DNA of 64,000 bases from the NCBI GenBank assembly GCA_016350165.1, contig CP066225.1, positions 1,426,001 through 1,490,000 of the forward strand, given 5' to 3'. The translations under genes and the position numbers were made by a program. The first letter of the stretch is position 1, and each line of letters begins with the position of its first letter. This document shows, in pieces, positions 32,295-41,121 of this stretch. The stretch comes from Planctomycetota bacterium. GTDB lineage: Bacteria; Planctomycetota; Phycisphaerae; Phycisphaerales; Phycisphaeraceae. The notes beneath the pieces are model-generated. The model was not told where the DNA came from. It made no database searches and saw only the letters and a program-made list of their open reading frames with translations.

Positions 32295-33968
32295 TTACGC
32301 ATTTCTTCGCCGCATCAGCAATCCCAAGCCACCAAGAATCATAAGACTTCCGCTCAATGGTTCTGGAATCATCGTCGCAACAAAGTCGTCATAAACTGCC
32401 TGCTGACTCGCGTTGAACCCAGCCGTCTGATACAGATCAAACATCGCAAGGTCCGCCGCATCAACATCCCAGTCACCGTCCCAGTCGCCAGTCGCCCAGC
32501 CTTCACTACCTTCACGCAAACCAAGCTCACCAGTGAAGTTATCCATTAGTGCGCTGAAGTCGCCAAAGTCCACATCACCATCCAGATCCGCATCACCATA
32601 CTGCGTATCCAAAATATCACGCACCAGATAATCAACATCCTTCTGCGTCACAAGCGTGCTCGTCGCAGCAAGATTAAAGATCGATGCATCACCACCTAAG
32701 TTCTTGTACAGCAAGTCAATATCAAACGCGTCAATACCGCCGCTGATATCAAAATCACCCGCTGCATCCGCTGTCATTGTCGTCGCACCTGTTGTGCGCA
32801 AGTCCATATGCACGTGATTCAGGTGCACGCCCGACGAGTCACCCACCGCATACGCGCTCAAACCAAGATCATCCATCTTGTCATTAAACGCATCACGGAC
32901 ATCCGTGTTACTGATGATCAGTTTGTAAATCTCACATCCCTCAGCCGCATTCTGAACGAACGCAACCATCTCATTGACAACACCTTGCTCGCTGCTGCTC
33001 AGATAACCGTTGCCGTAGTTCATCACACTGCCCGGCACATTCAAGTCGATATCCATCCCCGCTTGGTGCGTCTGGTGCCACTTCGAAGAACCCCAGCCAT
33101 CATCGGTCGACATACCATTAATCACCTGAGTACCGCTCACAGCCGCGCTCGCAGCTTTGATCGTCTCCACCGCCCAGTTTGTTGCCCAACGTTCCGGCTG
33201 AGGTGTTGCACCACTTCTTCCACCGCCCGGATCTGTGCCTGGCAAAATATCAAAATTACCATTGCCATCATACGGATCGAAGTAACCCGTTTGTGGATCA
33301 GGATCTACGAGTTCAACCCACTGCGGAGCATTCGCAGAATTCAACCATTTCGTCGTGTTCGGCCCAACAACCCCATCCATATAACTCGGCTTACTATTGC
33401 CAAACGATGCCTGGAACAACTGCACTGCCTTCGTCGATGCTGGACCGTAATCGCCATCAACAACCAACGAACTGCCGCCCTTGGTCGGATAACCTAAATA
33501 GTTCAAACGGTGCTGTTGGCCTGCAACTGAAACCGTGTCACCTGCATCAACAACCATACCCCGACCATTACCCGTATATCCTTCACGGACAGTCACTTCG
33601 AACGATTTCAGAACACCATCTACCGTCACATTACCCTGTAGTGTGCCCTGAAAACCCTTCGCATTAATATTCAGATCGTTACTCGAACCACCATCTACAT
33701 CCGGGATCAAAAAGAACTGACCCGTGCTGGAAAAGCTATTGCCCGTCCAGTTCGTCGTACTCGGCACATCAAATCCGCCTGCACCATTAAACGTCAATCC
33801 AGAAAAACTGCTGCCACCAAAGACTGCCGCGAGATTGATTGCCATGACATCACCGGTTCTGCCGTAAAAATCAGCATCCGAATCATGCAATCCAGCCGTA
33901 GCAACCCCTGCCCCGCTAAAAGCCAAACCCATTGCCAAAAAAGCACTTAAAGAGCGACTCGTATTCAT
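32295..33968 (-). CDS. Exported LAS-type murein endopeptidase-like protein with PEP-CTERM tail
   Basis: A 557-aa multidomain exported protein. Order: signal peptide (FLAMGLAFSGAGVATA); an N-terminal region of unknown fold; a peptidoglycan-binding_1-type repeat (GDYGPASTKAVQLFQ, about residue 172); a MepA/LAS metallopeptidase domain with H-x6-D (HQAGMDID) and HxH (LNHVHMDLR); two dockerin-like calcium loops (GDADLDGDVDFGDF and GDWDGDWDVDAADL); and a PEP-CTERM sorting tail (IPEPLSGSLMILGGLGLLMRRR). It should cut peptide crosslinks or related bonds outside the cell and be processed by an exosortase, which is not in this window. Confidence 0.88.
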   Translation of the reverse strand: MNTSRSLSAFLAMGLAFSGAGVATAGLHDSDADFYGRTGDVMAINLAAVFGGSSFSGLTFNGAGGFDVPSTTNWTGNSFSSTGQFFLIPDVDGGSSNDLNINAKGFQGTLQGNVTVDGVLKSFEVTVREGYTGNGRGMVVDAGDTVSVAGQQHRLNYLGYPTKGGSSLVVDGDYGPASTKAVQLFQASFGNSKPSYMDGVVGPNTTKWLNSANAPQWVELVDPDPQTGYFDPYDGNGNFDILPGTDPGGGRSGATPQPERWATNWAVETIKAASAAVSGTQVINGMSTDDGWGSSKWHQTHQAGMDIDLNVPGSVMNYGNGYLSSSEQGVVNEMVAFVQNAAEGCEIYKLIISNTDVRDAFNDKMDDLGLSAYAVGDSSGVHLNHVHMDLRTTGATTMTADAAGDFDISGGIDAFDIDLLYKNLGGDASIFNLAATSTLVTQKDVDYLVRDILDTQYGDADLDGDVDFGDFSALMDNFTGELGLREGSEGWATGDWDGDWDVDAADLAMFDLYQTAGFNASQQAVYDDFVATMIPEPLSGSLMILGGLGLLMRRRNA

Positions 33969-34951: not shown

Positions 34952-35020
34952 ATCTGCCCATGCCCTGATTTGATGTTTTTGGGTTTAGGTGATTTAGCAA
35001 TGCCGCGTCGCCGATCATAA
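34952..35020 (+). pseudogene. Relic of a PEP-CTERM gene (C-terminal tail only)
   Basis: The frame ending at TAA 35018-35020 reads ICPCPDLMFLGLGDLAMPRR followed by Arg-Ser-stop. Aligned to the intact neighbours (IPEPASLALFGLGGLAMLRR), it keeps Pro-x-Pro, the LGLG-LAM hydrophobic span and the three-Arg end, but Glu of PEP is Cys and a residue is lost. Upstream the frame is broken by stops within 100 bp. A terminator follows as in the intact copies. This is best explained as a decayed tandem member. Confidence 0.6.
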
Positions 35021-35069
35021 TAAAGCATGAAAATTAAAACATGCTGCAAAAAACATTCTTACGACCCAC

Positions 35070-35670: not shown

Positions 35671-36582
35671 ATGAAATCTAAGTTTTTTGCAATGGGGACA
35701 GCTTTAGCTGCAGGTGTAATGTTCGGCAATGCGAATGCGGCAGTATTATTCTCTACTAGTTTTGATGATGGCACAGATATGAGTGTAATCACAACTAATG
35801 CAGGAGATACAACGACTACATTCGGTGTTGATTACAGCGCAATGGGCATCCCTTCAGCAACAGGTACTGCAGACACGACTGGCCTACGCATTGATGCGAA
35901 TATTGCGGCACCTGCGGACGCACAGGAAGTTTTGGTTGTTGTTGATGCAACATCAGTCACGCTACCAAGCTCATTTATCATGTCATTCAAGGCATGGGCC
36001 AATGTTTCTCGAATCGATGGCGACAACACTACAACAGAATTTATTGGCGGTGTTGCAAATCATGACGGCACATCTACTGGCCGCACAAATGGCAATCTAA
36101 CAATTGTCACAGGTGACGGTGGGTCAGCAACGGATCTTCGCACATACGTCGATGGAGGACTTGAAAATGACCTTGGAACAGGCATTCATGGTCCCGCTTT
36201 AACAACATTCAATGCTCCGGATTTAGCTACAGCAGGAATTTTAGGTACCGGGAAATTAGCTCCTGCAGCGCAGGTAACAGCTGGTAACGGCGATACCGCA
36301 GTCCAAGATGGCGCTGGTGCTTTTGAATGGATTGACTTCAAAGCAATTGTAGATGGTAGCACCACAATGTGGTATATGAACGATGAGTTAATTGTTACAC
36401 ATGAAGGACAAGCTGCAGGTACAGCAGGTGTTTACTACGGTGATTTCTTCAGCTCTGTAGCTCTCAATAGTCAATTCCAATACGGCATATTCGATGATCT
36501 TAAGATCACCGACATTCCTGAACCAGCAAGCTTGGCTTTGTTTGGTCTGGGCGCTTTAGCAATGATTCGTCGCCGCAAGTAA
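35671..36582 (+). CDS. PEP-CTERM protein 1
   Basis: A 303-aa exported protein. Signal peptide FAMGTALAAGVMFGNANA; a mature beta-rich domain beginning VLFSTSFDDGTDMSVI and including FGVDYSAMGIP; an end DDLKITDIPEPASLALFGLG then LAMIRRRK. The tail is the exosortase sorting signal: PEP motif, hydrophobic span, basic end. The body resembles a jelly-roll or LamG-like fold shared with the next two genes (inference). AGAGAGGA upstream supports ATG 35671; the frame is open to 35593. Function unknown, probably surface or matrix. Confidence 0.88.
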   Translation: MKSKFFAMGTALAAGVMFGNANAAVLFSTSFDDGTDMSVITTNAGDTTTTFGVDYSAMGIPSATGTADTTGLRIDANIAAPADAQEVLVVVDATSVTLPSSFIMSFKAWANVSRIDGDNTTTEFIGGVANHDGTSTGRTNGNLTIVTGDGGSATDLRTYVDGGLENDLGTGIHGPALTTFNAPDLATAGILGTGKLAPAAQVTAGNGDTAVQDGAGAFEWIDFKAIVDGSTTMWYMNDELIVTHEGQAAGTAGVYYGDFFSSVALNSQFQYGIFDDLKITDIPEPASLALFGLGALAMIRRRK

Positions 36583-36650
36583 AGGATGGTTACATATACG
36601 AATAATCTGAGATTGTTCGTAAACTAATAATCGACCACTCAACCCAATGG

Positions 36651-36683
36651 CCGCTGAACACGAATCGTGTTCAGCGGTTTTTT
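36651..36683 (+). terminator. Terminator of PEP-CTERM gene 1
   Basis: Perfect 11-bp stem CCGCTGAACAC / GTGTTCAGCGG around GAATC, then six T. The block ACCACTCAACCCAATGG just before it recurs in all four genes. Confidence 0.9.
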
Positions 36684-37145: not shown

Positions 37146-37994
37146 ATGAGAAAAGTTTTTACAACATGTGCACTTTTGACAGCTACAGTCGCATTAACCA
37201 GTAATGCATCTGCGGCAACAATTTTCGAAGAAACATTCGATTCAATTGACTCAGCTAACATCGAACTCGTCGTTAACGGTGGTGTTACTGAAACCAAAAT
37301 TGTTGATGCAAACGCATTCAGCGTTAACAGCACTTCATTCTCAGTTTCAGACACTTCATCAAACGCATTGCTGATTCGTACGAACTACACAGCAGGTGAC
37401 GATGGCAAGGGTGCTGCAGCAAGTGTTTACATCAAAGCTAAGGACTCAGAAGGTAACAGCCTAAAAGTGACAGGCGACTACACATTGTCTTACGATGTTT
37501 ACATGAGCTACAAAGGCTCGGCTGGCACAACCGAAGCCAGTGGCTGGTCAATTACTGAGGGCGAAGAAGAATTGTATTACTACATGGTCGGTGATGGTGG
37601 ATATTCCGCCAACAGCTTCCGTAATAAGTACTTCAATGCTGACGGCTTAGTTTTTGACAACAAGTTTGGCCCAGAAGAAGACAAAGCAAAAGAAGCTTTT
37701 GGTGACGATGGCGTTCCTGCTTTCCAATGGTCACATGTCGAATTGGTTGTCAAAGATGGTGTTGCAACAACATTCGTCAATGGCGAAGAATTCTTTGTTG
37801 CTGAAAACGCACTTACAGAAGGCTCGGCCAGCCTTTTCTACACCGACCATTATGCATCAATCGCTGCTGAAGAAGATTTCCAGTGGGGTTTGATCGACAA
37901 CTTCAAGATTGTCGATGGTGCAGCAGTTCCTGAGCCAGCATCACTGGCATTGCTCGGTCTTGGCGGTTTGGCACTACTACGCCGTCGCAAATAA
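37146..37994 (+). CDS. PEP-CTERM protein 2
   Basis: A 282-aa exported protein. Signal peptide TTCALLTATVALTSNASA, then ATIFEETFDSIDSANIELVV, clearly related to the start of protein 3. The end is DNFKIVDGAAVPEPASLALL then GLALLRRRK, the exosortase signal. Acidic body, no Cys after the signal peptide, so probably secreted and calcium- or matrix-associated rather than enzymatic (inference). AAAGAGAGAGG precedes the ATG by about 8 nt. Confidence 0.88.
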   Translation: MRKVFTTCALLTATVALTSNASAATIFEETFDSIDSANIELVVNGGVTETKIVDANAFSVNSTSFSVSDTSSNALLIRTNYTAGDDGKGAAASVYIKAKDSEGNSLKVTGDYTLSYDVYMSYKGSAGTTEASGWSITEGEEELYYYMVGDGGYSANSFRNKYFNADGLVFDNKFGPEEDKAKEAFGDDGVPAFQWSHVELVVKDGVATTFVNGEEFFVAENALTEGSASLFYTDHYASIAAEEDFQWGLIDNFKIVDGAAVPEPASLALLGLGGLALLRRRK

Positions 37995-38059
37995 GTAACT
38001 GAGTAGCATGCGGCCAATCTGAGGTCGCATCAATCAAAACTGACCACTCAACCCAATGG

Positions 38060-38091
38060 CCGCTGAGCGAATTTTGCTCGGCGGTTTTTTT
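38060..38091 (+). terminator. Terminator of PEP-CTERM gene 2
   Basis: CCGCTGAGC / GCTCGGCGG (one T-G pair), then seven T. Confidence 0.88.
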
Positions 38092-38576: not shown

Positions 38577-39515
38577 ATGAGAAAAGCATTTAGCACACTT
38601 GCACTGCTTACAGCAGCAGCAACCATCACCAGCACAGCAAGCGCAGCAGTTCTTTTTGAAGAAGGTTTTGATTCAGCAGCAGACGCCAACCTGATTAATG
38701 TTGTAACAGGTGAAGTCGAAACTATGTTTGTTGACTACTCAAATTTCAATGTAGCACATCCAACTGAAGCTGGTACATCCGAAAACTTCAAACTCGGCGT
38801 AGCGGCATCTGGCAAAGGCACAACCGGCATGCTCGTCCGTGCAAATATGACTGGCGGCGCCACATCAGGTTTACAGTTCTACGCAGCAAATGCTGCAGGT
38901 GAAGGTATTAACTTCACTGGTACCTATAAAATGAGCTGGGATTCCTACGCATCAATTCCTACCGGAACAGCATCAAGTACTGAATTCCTCCAGTGGGGTG
39001 TTGGACGCCAAGACACCGCGAATCACAACGGTTACGGTACCGATTCAGACACATGGGATGGCTCATGGGGCGTAAGCTCGGGCGACGGTTACACACTTGC
39101 TGGCGGCGATGCTCACCGTTTCGCAATTAATGGTTCTTTGATCGCGAAGCAAGCTACTGAAGGTGATGCTTCACAAGCAGCATTCCCTGGCGGCGAAAAC
39201 GGCTATCCAGAAGCTGGTATGTACCAGAATAAATGGACACACTGGGAAGTATCTGTAGAAGGTGAAGTTGGCTACCAACAAATCACTCTCTCAGCTAATG
39301 GTGTGAAGATTTTTGATAGTTTTGATACTGGTTCTGCTAATGGTTTTGCATACCTTGGCTACGAAGATTACTGGTCAAGTGTTAACTCAACACCTATGGG
39401 CCAATGGATGATCTTTGATAACTTCGTTATCACTGATGGTGCTGCAATTCCTGAGCCAGCATCACTGGCACTGCTCGGCCTAGGCGGCTTGGCAATGCTG
39501 CGTCGTCGTAAGTAA
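38577..39515 (+). CDS. PEP-CTERM protein 3
   Basis: A 312-aa exported protein with signal peptide FSTLALLTAAATITSTASA, a beginning VLFEEGFDSAADANLINVV shared with protein 2, and FVDYSNFNV matching the FGVDYS part of protein 1. The end is DNFVITDGAAIPEPASLALL then LAMLRRRK. AGAGAGGA upstream of ATG 38577 is the ribosome site; the frame is open to 38481 without one. The last 30 bases of coding sequence belong to a 128-bp block identical to that of gene 4. Confidence 0.88.
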   Translation: MRKAFSTLALLTAAATITSTASAAVLFEEGFDSAADANLINVVTGEVETMFVDYSNFNVAHPTEAGTSENFKLGVAASGKGTTGMLVRANMTGGATSGLQFYAANAAGEGINFTGTYKMSWDSYASIPTGTASSTEFLQWGVGRQDTANHNGYGTDSDTWDGSWGVSSGDGYTLAGGDAHRFAINGSLIAKQATEGDASQAAFPGGENGYPEAGMYQNKWTHWEVSVEGEVGYQQITLSANGVKIFDSFDTGSANGFAYLGYEDYWSSVNSTPMGQWMIFDNFVITDGAAIPEPASLALLGLGGLAMLRRRK

Positions 39516-39613
39516 TTGACGACACATGAGTGTTTATCAGTAATACACTCGAATAAAACTTAGACCACTCAACCCAATGGCCGTCGAGCAAATTATTTCG
39601 CTCGACGGTTTTT
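39486..39613 (+). repeat. 128-bp exact direct repeat, copy A
   Basis: Identical base for base to 40994-41121. It covers the last 10 codons of gene 3, the stop, the 3' untranslated region and the terminator stem. Just upstream the two genes differ at several synonymous positions and then become unrelated. Confidence 0.9.
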
Positions 39614-39615
39614 TT
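39581..39615 (+). terminator. Terminator of PEP-CTERM gene 3
   Basis: CCGTCGAGC / GCTCGACGG perfect stem with a 10-base loop, then seven T. Confidence 0.9.
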
Positions 39616-39899
39616 ATGCCTAGATAGCTTTCGAATCTTCCCAATCACGAGCAATATTATGACATGCTTAAATGTGCTAATAAAAAAATACAAAATTGTT
39701 TTCCATGCCAGCATTTAGGATCTTAAAAATACTAATTCAACAAACACAATGAACTGCGCTCGCGTAAAACTTATATTTCCAAATATTTAGAGAAAAAGCG
39801 CAAATAGCAATTACTTCATTGAACGAAGAGATGAAACTCTTCCGGTATGGCCACATCGATCAAAGCATAAGATTTTGAATGATGTTCTATAATTTGCTC

Positions 39900-39927
39900 T
39901 TGGCATCGCAAGATTACGTGGTAGTAT
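39900..39927 (+). promoter_or_regulatory. Promoter of PEP-CTERM gene 4
   Basis: TTGGCA-N16-TAGTAT with GG immediately before the -10. Leader to ATG 40103 about 168 nt. Confidence 0.55.
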
Positions 39928-40102
39928 TTAGGTGCATTGTCTGTAAGAAGTACTATGTAATGCTATTTTAATAAGTACTAAGCTGCATTTCTTTTTCCGC
40001 AGCTAGTTAGTTAACAACAAAGTGAATTACTAGTAATCCGTCACGCATTTCCGGCGGATTGGAGATTGGAAGACATTTCTAAATTTGAGAGAGGCGATAC
40101 TT

Positions 40103-41023
40103 ATGAAAAAGATGTTCGCAACCGGGGCGCTTTTATCCGCAGCTATGCTTTTGACGGCTCAAGCAAGTGGAGCTGTTATTGCACATGAAGGTTTCAGCGC
40201 TGATGCTTACACTGACGGCGACATTCGCACACAACAGCCAGCATCCGTTGGTTTTGCGGGCGAATGGGCAGGTACAACAAATGGCTACAAAATTGCTGGC
40301 TCGGTAGATGACACCGCCATTGCAATCATCCCAAGTTCTGTAGGTGCTGTGAAATGGCCTGGCGGATCAAACGTTTACAATCGTCATGTAGAACGTAATC
40401 TTGCAAGCTACACAGCTGAAAACACTTATTATTTAAGCTTTGTAAATCGTCGTGGCTCTTGGGCAGCTGAGAGCGTATATACTGATGATCACCCAGGCGT
40501 TGAACTTAAAATGGAAGCGACCATGGGTTTTGCAAATGCTGAAAATAGCGAAGGTGTGAAAATTGGCTATACCTTCCATGCTGACGATACAGAAAATGCA
40601 CTACCAAGTTTGGTTATCAAGGCAGGTACTCAAGAAATTCTTGCCACCACAGGTTCAACTTATGCTCAAACATTCACAACATTGATGAAACTCGAACTTG
40701 ATGTTGACGGCACACAAGACAAATTAAGCTGGTATGTCGCAGGTGGAACAGATTCCACTCCATCAACCTCAGATTTCTCAACAGAGGCACTCGCTGAGAG
40801 TACTGCAAAATTCAAAGGTGTTTACACTGGCGATATCCTCACTGGTAATGATTCATTGTCACAACTGATGCTGGGTAGCCCTGACCGTTCAGGTATCGTT
40901 TACTTTGACGAAGCAACCATGGCAACGACATGGGCAGATGCAACTGGTATCGAAATTCCTGAGCCAGCATCATTGGCACTGTTCGGTCTTGGTGGCTTGG
41001 CAATGCTGCGTCGTCGTAAGTAA
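40103..41023 (+). CDS. PEP-CTERM protein 4
   Basis: A 306-aa exported protein with signal peptide FATGALLSAAMLLTAQASG. The body differs from proteins 1-3: HEGFSADAYTDGDIRTQQPASV and FAGEWAGTTNGYKI resemble LamG/concanavalin-like planctomycete proteins. The end is EIPEPASLALFGLG then LAMLRRRK. GAGAGAGG upstream of ATG 40103 sets the start. Tail and terminator are identical to gene 3, while the body is not, so the tail appears to have been swapped or converted. Confidence 0.88.
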   Translation: MKKMFATGALLSAAMLLTAQASGAVIAHEGFSADAYTDGDIRTQQPASVGFAGEWAGTTNGYKIAGSVDDTAIAIIPSSVGAVKWPGGSNVYNRHVERNLASYTAENTYYLSFVNRRGSWAAESVYTDDHPGVELKMEATMGFANAENSEGVKIGYTFHADDTENALPSLVIKAGTQEILATTGSTYAQTFTTLMKLELDVDGTQDKLSWYVAGGTDSTPSTSDFSTEALAESTAKFKGVYTGDILTGNDSLSQLMLGSPDRSGIVYFDEATMATTWADATGIEIPEPASLALFGLGGLAMLRRRK

Positions 41024-41121
41024 TTGACGACACATGAGTGTTTATCAGTAATACACTCGAATAAAACTTAGACCACTCAACCCAATGGCCGTCGAGCAAA
41101 TTATTTCGCTCGACGGTTTTT
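40994..41121 (+). repeat. 128-bp exact direct repeat, copy B
   Basis: Second copy of 39486-39613, spanning the end of gene 4 and its terminator. The repeats are 1508 bp apart in the same orientation. Confidence 0.9.
41089..41120 (+). terminator. Terminator of PEP-CTERM gene 4
   Basis: Same CCGTCGAGC / GCTCGACGG stem as gene 3, but with only five T before the sequence diverges. Confidence 0.85.

Follow-up and report, generated by a model that had tools for sequence, protein, structure and literature searches.

Dissimilar bodies between shared ends in a planctomycete PEP-CTERM gene array: probable body exchange and a probable recent conversion of two 3′ ends

Within the 64,000-nt window analysed here (Planctomycetota bacterium, family Phycisphaeraceae, assembly GCA_016350165.1, contig CP066225.1, positions 1,426,001 to 1,490,000 of the forward strand), there are four tandem PEP-CTERM genes, g1 to g4, all on the plus strand and all with complete reading frames, of which genes 3 and 4 carry dissimilar bodies in front of one and the same 128-bp 3′ end. 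Comparison was made with G001, the only other genome of the genus compared, in which both flanks of the array are syntenic and two PEP-CTERM genes, h3 and then h1, stand in place of the four found here. We consider it probable that the bodies of these genes have been exchanged between gene ends that stay bound to their position in the array, and that a recent gene conversion has homogenised genes 3 and 4. The four genes are listed below (RBS, ribosome-binding site).

35671 to 36582, plus strand: gene 1 (g1), PEP-CTERM protein; body orthologous to G001 h1, upstream/RBS end like G001 h3
37146 to 37994, plus strand: gene 2 (g2), PEP-CTERM protein; paralog of gene 3
38577 to 39515, plus strand: gene 3 (g3), PEP-CTERM protein; body orthologous to G001 h3
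40103 to 41023, plus strand: gene 4 (g4), PEP-CTERM protein; body unrelated to genes 1–3 in blastp and in profile comparisons, RBS/signal and tail ends like G001 h1

All four proteins exceed the cut-offs of both sorting-tail models, with 26.5–29.6 bits for PF07589 (cut-off 20.7) and 22.5–25.8 bits for TIGR02595 (cut-off 16), and a Pfam search of the four gave only the PEP-CTERM domain and a sub-threshold Laminin_G_3 match. Their N-termini, judged by eye, run from Met through basic and hydrophobic to Ala-rich residues and are putative signal peptides, and the proteins are probably exosortase substrates. Genes 1 to 3 are true paralogs.

From the base-by-base alignment, it is clear that positions 39486–39613 and 40994–41121 are identical over 128 bp, exactly as the first-pass annotation had it, and that the match is maximal, being unextendable on either side. 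The content of the tract was also described correctly there as tail codons, 3′ untranslated region (UTR) and terminator, except that its ten codons are in fact nine amino-acid codons and a stop.

39486 to 39613, plus strand: exact 128-bp block, copy 1; nine tail codons, stop, 3′ UTR and terminator up to a run of five T
40994 to 41121, plus strand: exact 128-bp block, copy 2; identical to copy 1
40945 to 40993, plus strand: gene 4, sequence to the left of the block; 40 of 49 bases identical to gene 3, an older, diverged homology

On the right, identity stops after the five T of the terminator and nothing aligns beyond, while offset-matched 50-bp windows elsewhere in genes 3 and 4 agree at only 9–23 of 50 bases. 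An exact block with lower identity to its left and the end of homology to its right is what a conversion tract looks like. The bodies were said to be unlike outside the signal and the tail, and the protein comparisons bear this out: blastp between the two proteins returned a single 31-residue stretch (E=0.011) over the signal peptides, and in two profile-profile comparisons, too, only the signal-peptide end aligned, over 31 and 34 columns. In the own genome (G000; 5.23 Mb, one contig), there are exactly two full copies of the block and no third, the next-best match being the terminator region of gene 2 (83% over query positions 70–128). Related modules are found at g1, g2, h1 and h3. It is very unlikely that an assembly error, in favour of which nothing was found, lies behind the repeat, since the genome is a single 5.23-Mb contig, the flanks are unique and the repeat is just 128 bp long.

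Related 3′ modules are shared between g2 and g3 (75.7% over 185 bp), g2 and g4 (74.1% over 170 bp) and g1 and g2 (71.2% over 170 bp); between g1 and both g3 and g4, the match is limited to the tail and a 21-nt element. This element, which lies directly before the terminator, shows no mismatch in all four array genes and in both genes of the G001 array. The predicted order in each UTR is stop, hairpin, 21-nt element, terminator hairpin and U-run, with the first hairpin predicted, and clearest, when the stretch between stop and element is folded by itself. When the whole UTRs of g1, g2, h3 and h1 are folded, bases of the 21-nt element pair with upstream sequence. An intrinsic terminator, namely a G+C-rich stem followed by a U-run, is predicted in all six genes.

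36633 to 36653, plus strand: invariant 21-nt 3′-UTR element, gene 1
38042 to 38062, plus strand: invariant 21-nt 3′-UTR element, gene 2
39563 to 39583, plus strand: invariant 21-nt 3′-UTR element, gene 3
41071 to 41091, plus strand: invariant 21-nt 3′-UTR element, gene 4
39579 to 39615, plus strand: predicted intrinsic-terminator hairpin and T-run, gene 3; the stem varies and its pairing is kept among g1, g2, g3, h3 and h1
41087 to 41121, plus strand: predicted intrinsic-terminator hairpin and T-run, gene 4; CA comes next, as it does in G001 h1

Among the five distinct stem sequences, all 45 of 45 cells are paired and three of nine pairs are changed on both sides, which 39 of 500 shuffles equal, giving weak support for covariation in the predicted stem. 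The 21-nt element would act in RNA. It has no further site in the window at up to three mismatches (shuffle expectation 0), and the only further sites in the own genome are one with two mismatches at 247 kb and one with three mismatches at 3135864, which was dropped because it falls within an open reading frame of the opposite strand. Outside the genus, the same threshold gave one site each in 10 of 99 genomes against 12 reversed-control sites in 10 genomes, that is, the chance level. A known RNA family was rejected, Rfam having no match in the window at gathering thresholds. At 247 kb, positions 247170–247210 of contig C1 (7171–7211 of locus L089, plus strand) hold a degraded solo copy of the element together with the start of the stem (86%, E 7.2 × 10−6), between two minus-strand reading frames and with no listed PEP-CTERM match nearby.

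What the element and the stem do not account for is the spacer between the stop codon and the element. It is identical in genes 3 and 4, and it is unlike among g1, g2, g3, h1 and h3, even between g3 and its own body ortholog h3. Since the spacer differs between genes, constraint can explain the 21-mer and the stem but not the whole 128-bp identity, and since selection alone is insufficient where g3 and h3 differ, the recent exchange proposed in the first-pass annotation is supported.

The comparison with G001 also reveals that bodies and ends do not pair alike. The bodies pair g1 with h1 (score 333) and g3 with h3 (397), and the body of gene 4 has no relative in G001 at E ⩽ 10−8; among 100 other genomes searched, relatives of it were found in two (G026 and G043), at 33–34% identity. 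The upstream DNA, on the other hand, pairs g1 with h3 (44), as does the RBS/signal region (34), while the RBS/signal region of g4 pairs with h1 (48). These pairings stand out from the background: for the 150 of 206 PEP-CTERM genes of the two genomes with a complete 5′ side, the 5′ end of gene 4 has h1 as its best match (48) among 149 others, the next scoring 27, and that of gene 1 has h3 as its best, with h1 next (29). At the 3′ end, the tail and UTR of gene 4 are nearest across species to h1 (139, against 92 for h3), and both genes read TTTTTCA after the stem. Gene 3, too, has its tail and UTR nearer to h1 (120, against 94 for h3), which a tract common to genes 3 and 4 would predict. Bodies and ends are thus discordant between the two arrays. 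Since g1 and h3 are the first genes of their arrays and g4 and h1 the last, the ends look bound to position and the bodies look exchanged. The distance between the two genomes can be gauged from the syntenic cytochrome-like gene, in which a stretch of 443 bp shows 78.8% identity.

To account for these observations, we propose that both gene ends are homologous pieces of a chassis, between which the middles are replaceable. The 5′ piece would consist of the RBS and signal peptide, and the 3′ piece of the tail codons, the 3′ UTR with its 21-nt element, and the terminator. Over longer times, homologous recombination at the conserved ends would swap or reshuffle the bodies, so that bodies rather than ends would be what moves, and over short times conversion would homogenise the ends of neighbours. 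The most recent of these events would have left the 128-bp identity: a non-reciprocal conversion involving genes 3 and 4, which starts inside the tail codons, reaches the point at the terminator where homology ends, and replaces a 3′ module already in place in both genes. Homologous conversion appears to be the mechanism, and since a related 3′ module is already common to the array, ordinary gene conversion between homologous sequences suffices for the 128 bp. With no difference in 128 bp, the last event would fall well after the split from G001. The direction was weakly suggested to be from gene 4 to gene 3: over 30 tail sites inside the tract, there are 2 differences to h1, 3 to h3 and 7 to g2, whereas over 42 sites to its left gene 3 differs from g2 at 4 and from h1 at 11, and gene 4 differs from g2 and g3 at 6 each and from h1 at 7.

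To see how the ends behave elsewhere, we have compared the 120 nt following the stop codon of 150 PEP-CTERM hits in the own genome (31 of them under the Pfam cut-off) by local score, with a threshold of 35; end-gap-free global identity was dropped for its poor null. Neighbour pairs were those on the same strand within 6 kb. UTRs are shared at this threshold by 15 of 80 neighbour pairs as compared with 13 of 11,045 distant pairs. The comparison of bodies was confined to the frames that had been fetched, both members being 5′-complete in 59 of the 80 neighbour pairs and in 12 of the 15 that share UTRs. Of the 15, 6 have body homology (blastp E<10−4), as do 38 of the 65 other neighbours (odds ratio 0.47, p 0.25), so that among the 80 neighbour pairs no association of UTR similarity with body homology was found, and 9 of the 15 have no body match. 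A clear positive association would be expected from simple duplication, which is therefore disfavoured. Only 3 of the 21 neighbour pairs with strong body homology (E<10−20) share UTRs. The nine pairs without a body match come from this array (three), 678460/679810 (one), 1877901/1878973/1880285 (three), 3595901/3598651 and 2238402/2239349. At 678460, an FG-GAP propeller (E 4 × 10−53) is encoded next to a neighbour without an FG-GAP match, and the 3′ ends of the two agree at 81% over 157 bp. Tails have exact runs of 20 nt or more in common in 33 of 11,175 gene pairs, against 3 for body windows.

Similar searches were done in G001 (56 of 138 hits examined) and in G038, which belongs to another genus of the same family (52 of 150 hits examined). 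In G001, such exact runs are found in 6 of 1,540 tail pairs and in no body windows, and in G038 in 180 of 1,326 tail pairs against one. In G038, 2 of 44 neighbour pairs and 7 of 1,280 distant ones have UTR scores of at least 35. Body homology (E<10−4) accompanies the shared UTR in three of the nine and is absent from six, among them a borderline case at 1.4 × 10−4; the weakest pair (36) agrees in DNA over the tail only. One example is a Laminin_G_3 protein beside an F5/8-C-like protein, whose 3′ ends are 82% identical over 248 bp. Another is the pair 1346855/1883749, whose members lie 0.54 Mb apart and have no body match, yet agree at 89% over 129 bp of tail and UTR and at 78% over 87 bp of the signal-peptide end; further matches tie the 3′ module of a preceding gene to the 3′ end of 1883749. 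At the G038 loci L218 and L220, PEP-CTERM 3′ modules (tail and UTR) are repeated between arrays 0.5 Mb apart, and some matches run well past the UTR, that of 1345962/1882969 covering positions 3–374 of 375 compared bases.

A large pair in the own genome was also observed (L239 and L240, positions 1010500–1018500 and 1034500–1042500 of contig C1), in which two large PEP-CTERM genes, the 1016/1040 kb pair, lie 24 kb apart. They are 94% identical on the 5′ side, their bodies are patchy, diverged homologs (DNA pieces of 65–88%), and an exact run reaches from 549 bp before to at least 2,199 bp past the end of the stop codon.

The alternative closest to our proposal is the one favoured in the first-pass annotation, namely that the sorting tail and terminator are themselves movable, as a 3′ module written over the ends of unrelated genes in the manner of the ‘3′ donation’ of VSG genes discussed below. 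It fits the start of the exact tract inside tail codons, the shared 3′ ends behind unrelated bodies in several arrays and at loci 0.5 Mb apart in G038, the degraded solo 3′ element at 247 kb with no listed PEP-CTERM match nearby, and the excess of exact runs in tails over body windows in all three genomes. The observation at its core, that unrelated bodies share tail, UTR and terminator here, in other arrays and in another genus, is supported. As the whole story, 3′-only movement is not supported, because the 5′ end of g4 matches h1 and the upstream DNA of g1 matches h3; 5′ ends can thus be shared too, as they also are in the 1346855/1883749 pair, which a 3′-only module does not predict. Nothing in the Pfam matches of the array proteins suggests mobility either, the rest of the window not having been searched for mobility genes. 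Plasmid-borne spread was rejected separately, a search of PLSDB in distant mode with the 174-bp module having given no match. We regard a movable 3′ module as unlikely in general, while it is a possible account wherever shared 5′ ends are not shown.

A second alternative, in which whole genes were duplicated in tandem and their bodies then diverged very fast between constrained ends, would draw on the true paralogy of genes 1–3, on the frequent duplication and loss reported for PEP-CTERM genes (PMC1569441), and on the 1016/1040 kb pair, whose diverged homologous bodies lie between near-identical flanks. It has to contend with gene 4, which has no profile-level similarity to genes 1–3 outside the signal peptide, with bodies of different Pfam domains that are unlikely to have descended from one another while their UTRs stayed about 80% identical, and with strong body homology that mostly comes without shared UTRs. 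Different domains before shared ends and the lack of a body-UTR association led us to set it aside as improbable. Even less probable is the absence of any recombination, with selection on a functional RNA conserving the 3′ end and so keeping genes 3 and 4 identical there. The invariance of the 21-nt element over six genes and two species, the fully paired terminator stem with its two-sided changes (a pattern that 39 of 500 shuffles equal) and the hairpin predicted ahead of the element in each UTR all speak for some constraint, but genes 3 and 4 agree fully in the spacer and first hairpin, which are unlike among g1, g2, g3, h1 and h3. Constraint alone is thus rejected for the spacer and kept for the 21-mer and the stem.

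Several observations weigh against the exchange of bodies between position-bound ends. In the UTR alone, gene 4 is tied between h1 (59) and h3 (60), and in tail and UTR gene 1 is nearly so between h3 (58) and h1 (56). The RBS/signal region of g2 is also like that of h1 (42), and g4 and h1 show no clear homology in the leader upstream of the RBS, where they score 23 against a shuffle mean of 18 and where 13 of 200 shuffles score as high. The nine shared-UTR pairs without a body match come from five arrays only, two of them weak (3595901/3598651 and 2238402/2239349), and the Laminin-G/F5-8 pair is the one borderline by blastp (E 1.4 × 10−4), its F5_F8_type_C match of 25.5 bits being below the cut-off of 28.2. 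The shared-UTR pattern is not frequent everywhere: in G001, just 1 of 52 neighbour pairs reaches 35, namely this array, with homologous bodies, and the next scores 31. The direction of conversion rests on few sites, and inside the tract h3 is nearly as close as h1; the comparison within the genus is with one further genome. The bodies could also be remote homologs, structure models being too poor to tell, with a predicted local distance difference test (pLDDT) score of 30 for gene 4 alone and 54 for gene 3 with two paralogs. Nor did searching solved structures with profiles yield a convincing match, the best E values being 0.83 and 0.13.

Among known systems, the closest likeness is the ‘3′ donation’ of VSG genes in Trypanosoma brucei, where surface-protein bodies of low identity likewise come with a common 3′ end. 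The boundary there lies in the region encoding the C-terminal glycosylphosphatidylinositol-anchor signal in 90 of 358 cases, with 13–143 bp of boundary homology (PMC3708902), and VSG 3′ UTRs contain an essential 16-mer (PMC5698767); the donation presumably runs through the UTR. However, that system is eukaryotic, with one expressed locus, an archive of silent genes and pseudogenes, and a role in immune evasion, whereas the array here consists of intact neighbouring bacterial genes with no silent archive, switching or host immunity known. In Neisseria pilE/pilS, too, a surface-protein gene carries a conserved DNA element at its end, the 66-bp Sma/Cla repeat on the 3′ side of pilE, which enhances gene conversion (PMC4023411). 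This system differs in having one expressed locus fed by non-expressed cassettes, a required upstream G-quadruplex (G4) and variant pilins instead of unrelated bodies. Four complete frames, a predicted terminator for each and promoter-like sites at g2–g4 (without a control) speak to some degree against pilin- or VSG-like variation, and the array is not assigned to either class, since neither a silent archive nor switching nor a single expression locus is shown here. An integron cassette array was considered as well, given a conserved element and an inverted repeat after each gene; the repeat with its T-run folds as a terminator. The PEP-CTERM tail has been described as a modular domain that undergoes expansion in individual lineages; its proteins are said to form large, fast-changing sets that share little homology beyond the tail and rank among the fastest-evolving of their genomes (PMC1569441). 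The sections of that account that bear on our case concern the protein level and proteobacterial upstream motifs, and shared UTRs or terminators and position-following ends are not described in them. A limited search of open PMC literature found no report of end-sharing or conversion of PEP-CTERM genes.

As for the surroundings, a minus-strand gene at 32295–33968 lies to the left of the array and a reading frame starting from about 41500 lies to its right. The latter contains many CxxCH motifs and was judged by eye to be a multihaem cytochrome. The left neighbour gives weak peptidoglycan-hydrolase-type matches, far under cut-off, and has a weak PEP-type tail (TIGR02595 15.2 bits against the cut-off of 16); it is 74% identical to its G001 counterpart. 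Upstream of gene 1, there is one more tail, as follows.

34979 to 35027, plus strand: decayed PEP-CTERM tail; reads LMFLGLGDLAMPRRRS, then two stops

This tail is 75.5% identical over 49 bp to that of G001 h1 (E 7.5 × 10−4) and, going by its sequence, is probably the scar of a lost array gene; a terminator-like hairpin was seen by eye on its 3′ side. Promoter-like sites of the form TTGGCA-N16/17-TAnnAT lie 183–203 nt upstream of g2, g3, g4 and G001 h1, counted without a shuffle control, and none was found upstream of g1 and h3. If these are true promoters, the genes have long 5′ leaders.

Taken together, the above observations allow a broader and more tentative view, which we hold to be somewhat doubtful, that the exosortase-substrate genes of this lineage form a body-swapping system in which the DNA of both ends serves as recombination ports, and in which the 21-nt element gives each body in this array an inherited RNA-level control. 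Ends acting as recombination ports, if true, would explain why unrelated bodies come with alike tails within a genome. Not only the tails but also the 3′ UTRs and terminators would then track exchange. The invariant 21-nt element is a separate and sharp target for RNA or reporter work. If the ends do act as ports, any secreted domain placed between them would at once be expressed, exported, sorted and terminated.

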